DNA of 20,468 nucleotides, from positions 1 to 20,468 of the IMG/VR virus record IMGVR_UViG_3300012036_000035. The stretch is one strand, 5' to 3'. Both the position numbers and the translations under genes were made by a program. Shown here piece after piece: positions 2,368 to 15,050 of the stretch (positions are counted from its first letter, which is position 1; each line of letters begins with the position of its first letter). Origin of the DNA: a virus. The notes beneath the pieces were generated by a model. It searched no databases. It was not told the origin of the DNA and saw only the letters and a program-made list of their open reading frames with translations.

Positions 2368-4512
2368 GTGGTAGAAGAAATCGAATTTACCCTTGCCCCC
2401 CCTCAAGATGAGTTTATAAATTCCGATAATAAACGGGTTGCCATTATCGCAGCAAAAGGATATGGGAAGGCGCAACCATTATGGGAGCCTGTACTGACCC
2501 CGGCAGGTTTTGTTTACATGCACGAAATAGAAGTTGGGGATTATGTCATTGGCTCAGATGGCAAGCCAACGAAAGTCAACGCTATTCACTGGCAGGGCAA
2601 AAAAGATGTTTATGAAGTCAGGCTATCAGACCGAACTTCCACAAGATGCACTCTTGACCATCTATGGGCTGTGCAAACAGGCTCAATGAAACACAGAGGG
2701 AAAGGATTTAAGGTAAAAAGAACAAAGGAATTACTTACTGATTTAAAAACATCACAAGGATATAACAAGTGGCATTTACCATTATGCGAACCTGTTGAAT
2801 ATTCATGGAAACCGAATTTAAAAATACCCCCTTATGCTTTAGGGGCATGGTTAGGCGATGGAGGAATGAGTAAAAAATCAGAGGTTGTATTCTCCACTGA
2901 TTTAATGCAAACTAAATCAAACACAAAGTTTATACCAAAGAAATACTTGTATTCATCTGTTGAAGATAGAATAAACCTTCTTCGTGGGCTTATGGACACA
3001 AAGGGTAACGTTACTCACGTAGGAACTGGTGAATTTTGCACGACATCGGCACAGTTAGCAAGTGATGTTGTTTTTTTATGTCAATCATTAGGCCTGACAA
3101 GTAAAGCGAATAAGTATAGCCAAAGGAATATAAACCATCTTGATTACTATTTGGTTCTTATAAACTCACCTTTTAACCCGTTTTCTTTACCAAGAAAGGC
3201 AGATAAGTTTAACATAAACGCCACTCAAGGAAGGGTTCGTGGGATTGATGCTATTGAAAAAGTAGGCAGAGAGTTATGTCAGTGTATAAGCGTTGATGCG
3301 GAAGATGGATTGTATGTAACTAAAGATTTTATTGTCACTCACAATACCTGGTCGGGAGCCAAGTTCATTGCAAAGCAAGCGATTGAACAACCTGACGTTC
3401 AACATCTTATCATGCTGAACACGCTTGGTCAGGCAAGAGATATTTTCTATCAGGATATTGAACCGCTTTTGCAGGATTTGGGATGGCCTTATCACTTCTC
3501 CCCACAGTACGGGAACCTGAAAATATTTGACACAACTTTCCATGTAAGATCAGCCGAAAAAGACTCTATCAAGCGTATTGAATCTATCTATTACGGGTCA
3601 GGGTGGGCTGATGAGGTGTCGTTTTTTGATTATGAATCATTCAAAATATTCTTTTCACGTATTCGGGTTGGCAAGAGTCTTGTTCGGGTAACATCCATGC
3701 CCGATGACCCTGAGCATTGGATGTATTCGATGTTGGACAAAGCAAATTTTACTATTCACGAAAAGAGCTTGTACGATAATCCTGATAAGGAATTTGTCAA
3801 GAACTACGAAGAAATTCTGAATGCGATCTATGAAGGCCCACAGCTAAAGCGCTATCTGTCAGGGGAGCGAGTCAGTCTTGCAGGGATGGGAATATTCAAT
3901 GTTCACCCCGACATGAAAGATCATATTCCGATTGACCCAGAAGAAGATATTGTGCTGTCTTGGGATTTCAACGTAGCCTATCGGGCCGTGTCCGCATGGC
4001 AAAAAACAGGGAGAGATGAACAGGGGCGACCCATCGTGGCGTGCGTAAAATCATGGCAGATGAAAGAGGACATCGTGTATCAGGATGCAGTTGTTTTGGC
4101 AAAAGAGTTTAAAGATCATGAAGGAATTATTTATCTTGGTGGAGATGCAAGCGAAAATAAACGTAGCTCTCAGACCACAGAAAGTATTTGGCAGACAGTC
4201 AGAAGGGCGTTTAAAGACGAAGAAGTAAGCAGTCGAAGCATTGTTCCGATCAAGAATCCGAATGTAAAAGACACGGTTCAGTGCTGTAATTGGTCGTTTA
4301 AATCAGGATTGGTTAATTTTGACCAAGCTGAAAAAAATGTATATTCTTCATTACAGGCAGCAAAGGCAGACAAATATGGTGAAATTGACAAATCAGGTGA
4401 TAACTCCCCAGGCGGTTCAAAATCTCACGAAGCCGACACAGCGAGATACGCTTTATGGTACTTTTTCAAAAATCTCTACCCTGGTGGAACCAAAAAAGCA
4501 TGGGTCGTATGA
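2368..4512 (+). CDS. terL: Terminase large subunit precursor containing an intein
   Basis: This is the packaging motor: an N-terminal ATPase that moves DNA into the prohead and a C-terminal RNase H-like nuclease that cuts genome units. The precursor has 714 residues. Residues 35-326 are an intein, leaving a 422-residue mature protein, a normal TerL length. The Walker A motif is split: AAKGYGK (28-34) joins TWSGAKF (327-333) after splicing. Walker B is GWADEVSFF with D415/E416. Nuclease acidic residues are D533 (LSWDFN), D593 (YLGGDASENKRSS) and D690 (SHEADTARYALWYF). The start is a GTG one base after the holin stop; an ATG at 2366 leads straight into a stop. The end overlaps the portal start as ATGA. 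No small terminase gene is recognised nearby. Confidence 0.92.
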   Translation: MVEEIEFTLAPPQDEFINSDNKRVAIIAAKGYGKAQPLWEPVLTPAGFVYMHEIEVGDYVIGSDGKPTKVNAIHWQGKKDVYEVRLSDRTSTRCTLDHLWAVQTGSMKHRGKGFKVKRTKELLTDLKTSQGYNKWHLPLCEPVEYSWKPNLKIPPYALGAWLGDGGMSKKSEVVFSTDLMQTKSNTKFIPKKYLYSSVEDRINLLRGLMDTKGNVTHVGTGEFCTTSAQLASDVVFLCQSLGLTSKANKYSQRNINHLDYYLVLINSPFNPFSLPRKADKFNINATQGRVRGIDAIEKVGRELCQCISVDAEDGLYVTKDFIVTHNTWSGAKFIAKQAIEQPDVQHLIMLNTLGQARDIFYQDIEPLLQDLGWPYHFSPQYGNLKIFDTTFHVRSAEKDSIKRIESIYYGSGWADEVSFFDYESFKIFFSRIRVGKSLVRVTSMPDDPEHWMYSMLDKANFTIHEKSLYDNPDKEFVKNYEEILNAIYEGPQLKRYLSGERVSLAGMGIFNVHPDMKDHIPIDPEEDIVLSWDFNVAYRAVSAWQKTGRDEQGRPIVACVKSWQMKEDIVYQDAVVLAKEFKDHEGIIYLGGDASENKRSSQTTESIWQTVRRAFKDEEVSSRSIVPIKNPNVKDTVQCCNWSFKSGLVNFDQAEKNVYSSLQAAKADKYGEIDKSGDNSPGGSKSHEADTARYALWYFFKNLYPGGTKKAWVV
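2470..3345 (+). other. Class 3 intein inserted in the TerL Walker A motif
   Basis: This 292-residue in-frame insertion separates Lys34 and Thr327 of the P-loop. Block A starts with Ala (AQPLWEPVLTPAGFVY) instead of Cys or Ser. Block B is CTLDHLWAV with T95, H98 and W100. Block F is CQCISVDAEDGLYV with C306. Block G is DFIVTHN followed by Thr. Thus Trp at B12, Cys at F4 (C306) and Thr at G5 (T324) form the WCT signature of class 3 inteins, which use the block F Cys as first nucleophile and need Ser or Thr at +1; here +1 is T327. A degenerate LAGLIDADG region lies between the splicing blocks. The splice junctions follow directly from P-loop reconstitution and the terminal His-Asn. Confidence 0.9.
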
Positions 4513-11900: not shown

Positions 11901-12272
11901 ATGCAGGATTTTAGGGAGTTAATAAAGGTGAACGGGACTCCTGTTCGCTTACAACCATACACAGAGCTTCGACACATACAGATTGCCAAAGTCGATGTTG
12001 AGATTAACGAGTTTATTGATAAGAACCCCGACTTGATATTCAGCGCTATGGAGCGTTCCAAAAAAGCCTATTTTTGGAAAAAGAAAGCACAGATTTTATG
12101 GGAACCACAACCCGAAATCGGTGTTGACGGGGAAGTCAAGAATTTGATTAAAGACCACTGGGATTCAAAAGAAAAGTTCTTCACACAATCCTTTTTTGAG
12201 GATTCTAACTTTGAATACCCATTATTGCAGAAAACGCAGGTTTTTTTTCTGAATCAAGAAGTGTTTCTTTAG
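11901..12272 (+). CDS. Tail assembly chaperone, G-like N-terminal product
   Basis: This 123-residue protein (MQDFRELIKVNGTPVRLQPY and following) sits two genes after the tube candidate and just before the tape measure, the position of the lambda G / GT chaperones that bind the tape measure during tail assembly. It has a beta start, a helical centre with HIQIAKVDVEINEFIDKN and a charged end. Near its 3' end the codons GTT TTT TTT fall on a run of eight T (12241-12248). Ribosomes that do not slip end at the TAG at 12270-12272; ribosomes that slip -1 make a longer protein of about 207 residues. No strong SD is visible; the start is 2 bases after the previous stop. Confidence 0.65.
   Translation: MQDFRELIKVNGTPVRLQPYTELRHIQIAKVDVEINEFIDKNPDLIFSAMERSKKAYFWKKKAQILWEPQPEIGVDGEVKNLIKDHWDSKEKFFTQSFFEDSNFEYPLLQKTQVFFLNQEVFL
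12239..12269 (+). promoter_or_regulatory. Programmed -1 ribosomal frameshift site of the tail chaperones
   Basis: In the chaperone frame the run reads GTT TTT TTT CTG. The last seven T (12242-12248) form the ideal heptamer T TTT TTT, and GGTTTTT (12239-12245) is a second slippery heptamer. After a -1 slip, the frame starting at 12248 (TCT GAA TCA AGA) is open without a stop to 12523. A weak hairpin, AAGAA (12256-12260) with TTCTT (12265-12269), begins 7 bases after the slip site, a typical distance, but it is AU-rich. Location directly upstream of the tape measure matches the conserved frameshift of long-tailed phages. Frameshifting itself is inferred. Confidence 0.7.
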
Positions 12273-12523
12273 ACAAGGCAGAGCATCATTTCGCTAAGTC
12301 AGTGTCATTTACCGATGATTTTGACAATAGCGAACCCCCTCAATCGAAACAGCAATGGATTGAAGATGTGGGTACTTATTGGTATTATAGCCTTATACTT
12401 GGAAACTTCAACCCCCGTGAGGCACAAAAGATCATGGACAACCCTGCTGATGTTATAGCCGAAGCGTTTGTATCAATGAAGTGCTACGAATGGGCTCCAA
12501 AAAGGAAAGCGCATGGAAGGTAA
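12248..12523 (+). CDS. Tail assembly chaperone, T-like extension read in the -1 frame
   Basis: This segment is open in the -1 frame from the slippery run to the TGA at 12521-12523. As a separate gene it would have to start at a GTG at 12302 (73 residues, no SD), so it is best read as the C-terminal extension of the upstream chaperone: about 116 residues from the first frame plus 91 from this one. It contains WIEDVGTYWYYSLILGNFNP, then AQKIMDNPADVIAEAFVSMKCYEW, helical segments of the type found in T domains that contact the tube protein. The stop overlaps the tape measure start by 11 bases. Confidence 0.65.
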   Translation, partial: SESRSVSLDKAEHHFAKSVSFTDDFDNSEPPQSKQQWIEDVGTYWYYSLILGNFNPREAQKIMDNPADVIAEAFVSMKCYEWAPKRKAHGR

Positions 12524-15050
12524 TGGCGAGCTAATTTATTACATCAAATTTCAGCCTGACGATCAGTCATACGAAAAGACTCTTTCCAAGATCAGGGAGC
12601 TTGAAGAAGCCAAAAAAGAAGGTGTTGGCGGTAGCGAAGAAACGACTCAGAAAACCATTGAGTTCAAGGAAGCTACTGAGGAAATGAATGAAAGCAATCA
12701 GGAAGCGATTGATAAGCTGATTGAGTTGCAGGAACAAATTGACGCTTACCGAAATACGCTTCAGGAAATACGAAACGCCAAGAAAGACAATAATGAGATT
12801 GGGCGTGAGGAACGGGAAACCGAAGCCCGCACTCAGGCAGCGCTGAAATCTACCCGCCAGGAATACCGAGACAATCAGAAGGAACTGATTGCAAGCACTA
12901 ACGCTACCGAAGGGCAGACAGCATCGTATAATCAGTTGCGAGCCGAAACAAAGCTCTTGGAATCTGCTATGCGAGATGTTCCCCTTGATGACAATACGGG
13001 AAAACTCGAAAAAATGAAAGAGACGGTCGCTGAGAATAAAAAGACCATGAAGGACTTCAATGCTGAGATTGGCGACCATAGCATGAATGTCGGTAACTAT
13101 TCGGGGTCGCTGTCCACACTTGCTTCTTCATTGGCGATTGTTCAAGGCCCACTTGGCCCACTCGCAGGTCGGTTGAACTCGCTAAATACGACTATGAAGG
13201 CTCTGCGTAGCAGTACGTTAGCGACTGCGGACTCATGGAAGTTGCTTAAAGTTGCAATGGCAGGAACTATTATTGGTGGGGTTGTTCTTGCTATCGGTGG
13301 ATTATCGTTTGCGCTATCCAAGATTCAGCCTGTTATTGACAGAGCCGAAAAAACAATGGCTCAATTAGGCTCTATATTTGATTTTGTAAAAGATAAGGCA
13401 GGCGCACTTGTTGGGGCAAACGAAGCTACGGTATTAAGTCTTGGAGAGGTTATCCATACAACAGGGCAATTAAAGGAGCAAGAGCAAGAGTTAAGAGATC
13501 AGCGTATTGCCGATATTCCTGTTATTGCACAGCTCGAAGCCTCTATTTCTGAGCTGCGTCAAAAGGCAGAAGATGAGATGTTTACAACCGAAGAACGCAT
13601 TAAGTTTATGGAGGAAGCCCGTAAGAAAAATAAGGAGTTGATGGACATAAAAACACAACGGGCAAGAGTTGAGGAATTTATCGCTGCTGAGGCGGGTCGG
13701 TTAATGCGGAATGAAAGAAAAGATAACGAAGCTATCAACGAAGCTAAAGCTAAACGTATCAGGCTGGAAGGCGAGAGGGCTATGCAGGATAGAACGCTCC
13801 TTCGCAGGCAGACAAGGATTATTGATGAACTTCGGGTCGAGCGTGAGCAACGGGAAAAGCATATTAAAACGATTCAGGAAGAATCACGGGCATTGGCACA
13901 GGCGCATAAAGAAGCGGTTGATCGGTTCATAAACGACCCACAACTATCTCTTTCAGAGCAACGCCATGAGCGTATGATAGCCCTATTAAAAGGCTCAGGT
14001 CAGCAAAGACTTGCTGTCGAAATGCAAATGAATCGTGATATACAACAGGCAAAACGTGAAAGCGCAGAAATGGAAGCCTCTCTGACTGAGAATAAGGAAG
14101 AAAAAATAGCGACTTTGACAGAGAAGTACATTATAGAGGGCGTTCAGAAAGAGGAGGCTAAAAAGATGGCGATATTAAAAATAAATGACCAAATAAAGGA
14201 TGAACAAATTGCCATCCGTAAAGGTCTTGCCACAGAGATTAAGCGTATTGAGGAAGATGCGCAAAATCAACTTGACGATGTGCTATCTGAGGAAATTCAG
14301 GTTCGTAATAATATTCGAGACCAAATCCAGCAACAACGTTCCGATGATGCGCTTATGCAACTCGCTCTTGAAAAAAGCCTTGCAAAAGGCAGGCATGAGC
14401 AATTAGCACAATTAGATGCTCAGGAAGCTGCACGAAGAAACAAATTATTTATTGAGAATTTAGAAGCTGGCATAGGTGAGGAGGAAGCCTTTTTGTTAGC
14501 TCAGGGGCAGGCTGAAAGAGATTTTTTTCAAAAGAAAGAGGACACCAAGAGCGCTATTCAGGAACAAGCGTTACAACACCGCTTATCCATGATGCAGGCA
14601 CACGCTGACCTTGCCGTAGGGGTAATGAACCTGATGTTTGGCGATAGCAAGGCGGTCAGGGTAGCCACAGCGCTTGTTGATACCTACGCTGCTGCCAACG
14701 CTTCGCTTGCTCAGGGCGGGAAACTTGGATTTGCTCAGGCTGCTGCTGCGGTAGCTCTTGGACTTGCCAATGTCCGTAAGATTATGCAAACCGAAGTAGG
14801 TGACAAGCCTTCGGGAAGTGGCGGTCAACAGGCAGGTGGTCTTTCTTCTCAGATGGGTTTTGAAGTAATCAGCAACGCTGATGAGGGATCAATGGCCCGA
14901 CAGGTTGCCATAGATACCGAAGCCATGCAAACCGAATCGACTACCAATATTTACCTGTCAGGCGACTTGGACAAAGAAGTGATGGCAATTAAAGCTCGTG
15001 AAGGCAACCGTCAGCTTAATACAAAGACTTTAACCACGAAATCACGCTAA
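12513..15050 (+). CDS. Tail tape measure protein
   Basis: This 845-residue protein is the longest gene of the tail module and directly follows the chaperone pair, as expected for the tape measure, which sets tail length and is delivered ahead of the DNA. Residues 1-200 are mostly coiled coil (many Glu, Lys, Gln), then GPLGPLAGRLNSLNTTMKAL, one strong hydrophobic segment around 245-272 (AMAGTIIGGVVLAIGGLSFA), and a long second coiled-coil region (340-700). The C-terminal part has the alanine-rich helix typical of the family (VRVATALVDTYAAANASLAQ and FAQAAAAVALGLANVRKIM). A Gly/Ser linker and a polar tail follow. At about 1.5 angstroms per residue it predicts a tail near 125 nm. No peptidase or lysozyme motif is seen. 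AAAGGAAA lies upstream of the ATG. Confidence 0.88.
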   Translation: MEGNGELIYYIKFQPDDQSYEKTLSKIRELEEAKKEGVGGSEETTQKTIEFKEATEEMNESNQEAIDKLIELQEQIDAYRNTLQEIRNAKKDNNEIGREERETEARTQAALKSTRQEYRDNQKELIASTNATEGQTASYNQLRAETKLLESAMRDVPLDDNTGKLEKMKETVAENKKTMKDFNAEIGDHSMNVGNYSGSLSTLASSLAIVQGPLGPLAGRLNSLNTTMKALRSSTLATADSWKLLKVAMAGTIIGGVVLAIGGLSFALSKIQPVIDRAEKTMAQLGSIFDFVKDKAGALVGANEATVLSLGEVIHTTGQLKEQEQELRDQRIADIPVIAQLEASISELRQKAEDEMFTTEERIKFMEEARKKNKELMDIKTQRARVEEFIAAEAGRLMRNERKDNEAINEAKAKRIRLEGERAMQDRTLLRRQTRIIDELRVEREQREKHIKTIQEESRALAQAHKEAVDRFINDPQLSLSEQRHERMIALLKGSGQQRLAVEMQMNRDIQQAKRESAEMEASLTENKEEKIATLTEKYIIEGVQKEEAKKMAILKINDQIKDEQIAIRKGLATEIKRIEEDAQNQLDDVLSEEIQVRNNIRDQIQQQRSDDALMQLALEKSLAKGRHEQLAQLDAQEAARRNKLFIENLEAGIGEEEAFLLAQGQAERDFFQKKEDTKSAIQEQALQHRLSMMQAHADLAVGVMNLMFGDSKAVRVATALVDTYAAANASLAQGGKLGFAQAAAAVALGLANVRKIMQTEVGDKPSGSGGQQAGGLSSQMGFEVISNADEGSMARQVAIDTEAMQTESTTNIYLSGDLDKEVMAIKAREGNRQLNTKTLTTKSR

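Follow-up and report, generated by a model that had tools for sequence, protein, structure and literature searches.

Probable -1 ribosomal frameshifting at a conserved T-run slip site in a putative tail assembly chaperone of uncultivated siphophages

The stretch of DNA analyzed here (20,468 bases, hereafter the window) carries a siphophage structural module including terminase, portal, HK97-type capsid, head-tail connector and tape measure. A pair of overlapping ORFs spanning 11901-12523 (Table 1) immediately precedes the tape measure ORF (12513-15050), as stated in a preliminary description made from the letters alone, and the order of chaperone pair followed by tape measure was common to relatives L017, L018 and L006. 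At the run of eight T the zero frame reads GTT TTT TTT CTG, which places the heptamer T_TTT_TTT (12242-12248) in phase, as originally proposed. The ORF analysis of the window also confirmed that the -1 frame is open from the slip site to 12523, and extended the open stretch back to 12227 or earlier. The predicted -1 product is 207 aa long (116 + 91), with a junction reading KTQVFF followed by SESRSVSLDKAE, in agreement with the junction QVFFSESR predicted before. Only one T8 run was found in the window on both strands (12241-12248), compared with 5.9 expected on average from dinucleotide shuffles; T8 runs are thus rarer than chance, and the sole copy is located at the chaperone slip site.

Table 1. 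Features at the chaperone locus of the window.
Feature	Position	Strand	Evidence
Putative G-like tail assembly chaperone, zero frame, 123 aa	11901..12272	+	ORF; 11 aligned relatives; weak phrog_1442 (two relatives); weak 2OB9 fold
T_TTT_TTT candidate slippery heptamer, zero-frame phase	12242..12248	+	T8 run 12241-12248; same codon in 9/10 frameshifting lineages (T_TTT_TTT or T_TTT_TTC)
Putative T-like domain, -1 frame, 91 aa post-slip	12248..12523	+	11 relatives aligned; pN/pS 0.03-0.38; fused with G-like domain in L006, L045
Zero-frame TAG stop	12270..12272	+	21 nt past the end of the T run; 19-22 nt in all frameshifting relatives
Tape measure protein	12513..15050	+	phrog_20660 tail length tape measure, E 5e-4; start overlaps T-domain stop

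Regarding the identity of the zero-frame product, weak matches to phrog_1442 (tail assembly chaperone) were obtained with two relatives (E 0.0024 for L027 and 0.035 for L017); the G protein of the window itself had no phrog_1442 match, and Pfam yielded no meaningful match for the chaperone proteins. An AlphaFold2 model of the G part (pLDDT 78) gave the HK97 chaperone 2OB9 as the first row of a VIA-align comparison, with weak scores (Z 3.5, 83 residues, rmsd 4.1), and tail assembly chaperones were among the top viral matches when the same model was searched against BFVD, all with E > 0.03. These sequence and fold matches are consistent with the tail assembly chaperone family, and are insufficient alone to establish membership. 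A model of the full GT protein of L006 was of low confidence (pLDDT 45) and was set aside. The G proteins of the window and L018 share an insert of about 21 residues (window positions about 12120-12190) that is lacking in the other relatives.

Queries with G, the fused GT of L006 and the tape measure against 50,697 phage records revealed no relative, and neither did queries of the GTDB species genomes with the chaperone and capsid alignments. Further contigs came from IMG/VR, which was scanned with the capsid and the alignments of both chaperone domains; these viral-contig searches yielded 17 more, clearly diverged contigs in which both frames overlap in the -1 relation seen in the window. After grouping of similar contigs, ten two-frame lineages were distinguished (19 contigs, window included), and a one-frame arrangement of both domains was present in two contigs (L006/L041 and L045). 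Conservation of the T run and of both frames had been proposed as a check: both frames are kept across the ten lineages, and the T run in all but one. Either T_TTT_TTT or T_TTT_TTC occurs at the same codon in 18 of the 19 contigs and nine of the ten lineages, L027 being the exception (Table 2).

Table 2. Zero-frame codons at the slip site in the two-frame lineages.
Lineage	Codons	Remark
Window	GTT TTT TTT CTG	
L018	ACT TTT TTT TTG	
L017	GAT TTT TTT TTA	
L022	GAT TTT TTT TTC	
L024	GAT TTT TTT ATC	T7
L028	AAT TTT TTC GTG	T6C
L033	TCT TTT TTC GTG	T6C
L037-L040	GAT TTT TTT TTA/TTG	
L042-L044	GAT TTT TTT TTA	
L027	CAT TTT ATC ATG	T_TTT only

Five diverged lineages align without gaps, and the longest invariant block among them is that of the seven T. 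Phenylalanine is encoded by TTC in 27-42% of cases in these phages. With the codon usage of each phage as background, the synonymous choices that keep the slip site in six genes, the sixth being the G-only copy of L006, had a joint probability of about 1e-4. The two-frame layout of L027 (5729-6249) is retained with T_TTT at the junction in place of the heptamer, which would permit a single-tRNA slip. A second in-phase T_TTT_TTT was observed within the G gene of L018 (14190-14196), where the -1 frame stops at once.

Conservation was found in both frames past the slip site. The zero-frame tail is conserved down to the stop (FFLNQEVFL, FFLTQEVYL, FFLASRVYL, FFVSQRLYL, etc.), with the C-terminal consensus FFxxx[RE/Q][VL][YF]L-stop among 11 aligned relatives, and since this tail and the position of the stop are both maintained, both products appear to matter. 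In the -1 frame, the alignment of 11 relatives showed conserved W, Y, F-x-P, A and VS positions, and pN/pS values were 0.03-0.08 for close pairs and 0.27-0.38 for distant pairs; this domain is coding and under purifying selection. Moreover, the G-like and T-like domains belong to one protein, because L006 and L045 encode both as a single ORF.

The contigs themselves show the slip site, both frames, the extent to which these are conserved and the order of the genes, and from this we infer that the locus very probably encodes a tail assembly chaperone of the lambda G/GT type, belonging to a long-tailed phage and made by -1 frameshifting of ribosomal nature. The G/GT-type reading of the preliminary description is thus well supported by the conserved frames, site and position in distant relatives, while the novelty it had attached to the all-T run is not. 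According to the proposed mechanism, most ribosomes would read 11901-12272 and produce the 123-aa G-type protein; a minority of them, carrying tRNA-Phe at each of the two TTT codons, would slip by -1 on T_TTT_TTT (12242-12248) and read the -1 frame to 12523, giving the 207-aa GT-type fusion. On the lambda model, the G part may coat the tape measure protein, the T part may recruit the tail tube protein, and the G:GT ratio would be fixed by the slip frequency, whose rate in the window, like the roles of the two proteins, is presumed from that model.

The slip site of lambda is GGGAAAG and differs from that of the window, for which ratio and function are proposed by analogy. The likeness to lambda gpG/gpGT lies in gene position, in a -1 shift towards the end of G and in a long form with an added T domain (PMC5009743). 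All-T runs had been regarded as unusual for this family of genes, a view at odds with phage P2, whose E/E' frameshift site is TTTTTTG (PMC3091744), and with SPP1, where a putative -1 shift at UUUUUUC yields 17.5/17.5*, a functional analogue of lambda G/GT (PMC6316719). In tests in E. coli, U_UUU_UUU was a weaker slip site than A_AAA_AAG (PMC5009743), and given these three precedents the all-T site is not of a new kind. By layout and site, P2 E / E+E' resembles the window in that its tail genes overlap and lie between those for the tail tube and the tape measure, and in a -1 shift on a T-run heptamer with no recognised downstream structure (PMC3091744), but P2 is a myophage and its site, T_TTT_TTG, ends in G. 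The gp17.5/gp17.5* pair of SPP1 shares with the window the siphophage type and the putative -1 shift on a U-run heptamer (PMC6316719); its host, however, is Bacillus, and its site U_UUU_UUC is that of L028 and L033 rather than the T_TTT_TTT of the window.

The stem downstream of the slip site had been described as weak, and the fold of the window was indeed no better than that of shuffled sequences (z about -0.9). No conserved downstream stimulator was detected: the consensus fold of five sequences contained a marginal stem of -0.9 kcal/mol inside the slip site, and that of ten sequences contained no stem. When sequences were folded singly, L022, L024, L027, L028, L033, L037 and L042 each had a stem shortly after the site, at about -9 to -15 kcal/mol, and no such close stem appeared in the window, L018 or L017. 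As candidate stimulators these stems were set aside, given their overlap with coding constraint and the lack of a consensus structure. A Shine-Dalgarno-like stimulator was also discarded: AAGGA, noted by eye upstream of the site in several relatives, is absent in the window and L018, and the stretch codes for LKD.

Among the alternatives to ribosomal frameshifting, slippage of RNA polymerase on the T8 run, by which some transcripts would carry nine U and yield the long form by reading in one frame, retains a small probability. Runs of T8-T9 are present in the window, L018, L017, L022, L037 and L042, and runs of nine A or T are prone to slippage in many bacteria, shorter ones in some (PMC1088944). 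A homopolymer long enough for such slippage is nevertheless not conserved across the family, since the two-frame layout is kept despite the short runs of L024 (T7) and of L028 and L033 (T6 then C), and with these members, slippage by RNA polymerase is unlikely to be the mechanism throughout the family. The lineages share the phased heptamer T_TTT_TTN and not a run length, a pattern that favours tandem tRNA slippage; some minor contribution of transcriptional slippage is possible in the members with T8-T9. Mass spectrometry cannot separate the ribosomal from the transcriptional route, because the junction peptide is identical in both.

Production of T as a separate protein, by reinitiation in the -1 frame and with no fusion, is very unlikely. 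A GTG codon is available at 12302 in the -1 frame of the window, and ATG codons occur nearby in L018 and L017, but the -1 frame of L024 has no start codon in its first 45 codons and the sole candidate in that of L033 is a TTG at codon 46, beyond the conserved W; separate initiation can therefore not be how T is generally made. In addition, conservation begins upstream of GTG 12302 (VSLDKAE), and both domains are joined in one ORF in L006 and L045.

A separately assembled contig, IMGVR_UViG_3300028405_000035, is 99.9% identical to the window, with 10 substitutions and not one indel over 10,535 bases, and also shows eight T. This makes a sequencing error at the run unlikely and bears on the earlier concern that the true count might be seven or nine. 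Although the site is a homopolymer in which one extra T would join the frames, the idea that the gene is truly one continuous ORF broken by a sequencing or assembly error has a negligible probability, given this second contig without indels in 10.5 kb, the recurrence of the frame break across many metagenomes in ten lineages, of which several have T6C or T7, and the conservation of the zero-frame tail past the break down to its stop.

The two members with a one-frame arrangement, L006 and L045, came from different metagenomes, and in both of them G and T form one ORF of 180 aa that is followed by a separate G-only gene (10253-11099 in L006 and 5635-6481 in L045 for both genes together). In the fused ORF of L006 the slip codons are altered to AAC TTC TTT. 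The G-only gene of L006 retains T_TTT_TTA, with a -1 frame that ends after 9 codons, and that of L045 has AAT TTT ATC at the site (T4). In the tree, the two G-only copies paired (100/99) and were placed near the frameshifting L024 with a support of 84/88, below the star threshold, while the fused GT copies formed a long branch of their own. It is probable that programmed frameshifting was replaced in L006 and L045 by two genes, a continuous GT without slip site and a G-only gene. The simplest history suggested by these sequences would be a duplication, after which T was lost in one copy and the frame was fixed in the other; given the long branch, an origin of the fused copies by transfer from another phage is possible. 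No precedent for duplicated G and GT genes was found in the open-access literature. If this reading is true, L006 and L045 represent a natural separation of the two products, suggesting that G and GT have distinct required functions and that the G:GT ratio is settable by means other than frameshifting, and they make it possible to ask whether that ratio is all that the frameshift is needed for.

With ribosomal frameshifting as the preferred explanation, an uncultivated phage family without match in the phage-record or GTDB searches would be added to the G/GT frameshift rule, and this family provides a natural gradation of slip sites (T9, T8, T7, T6C and T4).

Elsewhere in the window, the terminase ORF (2368-4512) contains an intein-like insert of 292 aa (2470-3345) with a LAGLIDADG match, which begins with Ala, ends with His-Asn and is followed by Thr. 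The insert interrupts the Walker A motif of the large terminase, between GYGK and TWSG. In the terminase of L018 the parts that flank it are contiguous, and L015 matches part of the insert.
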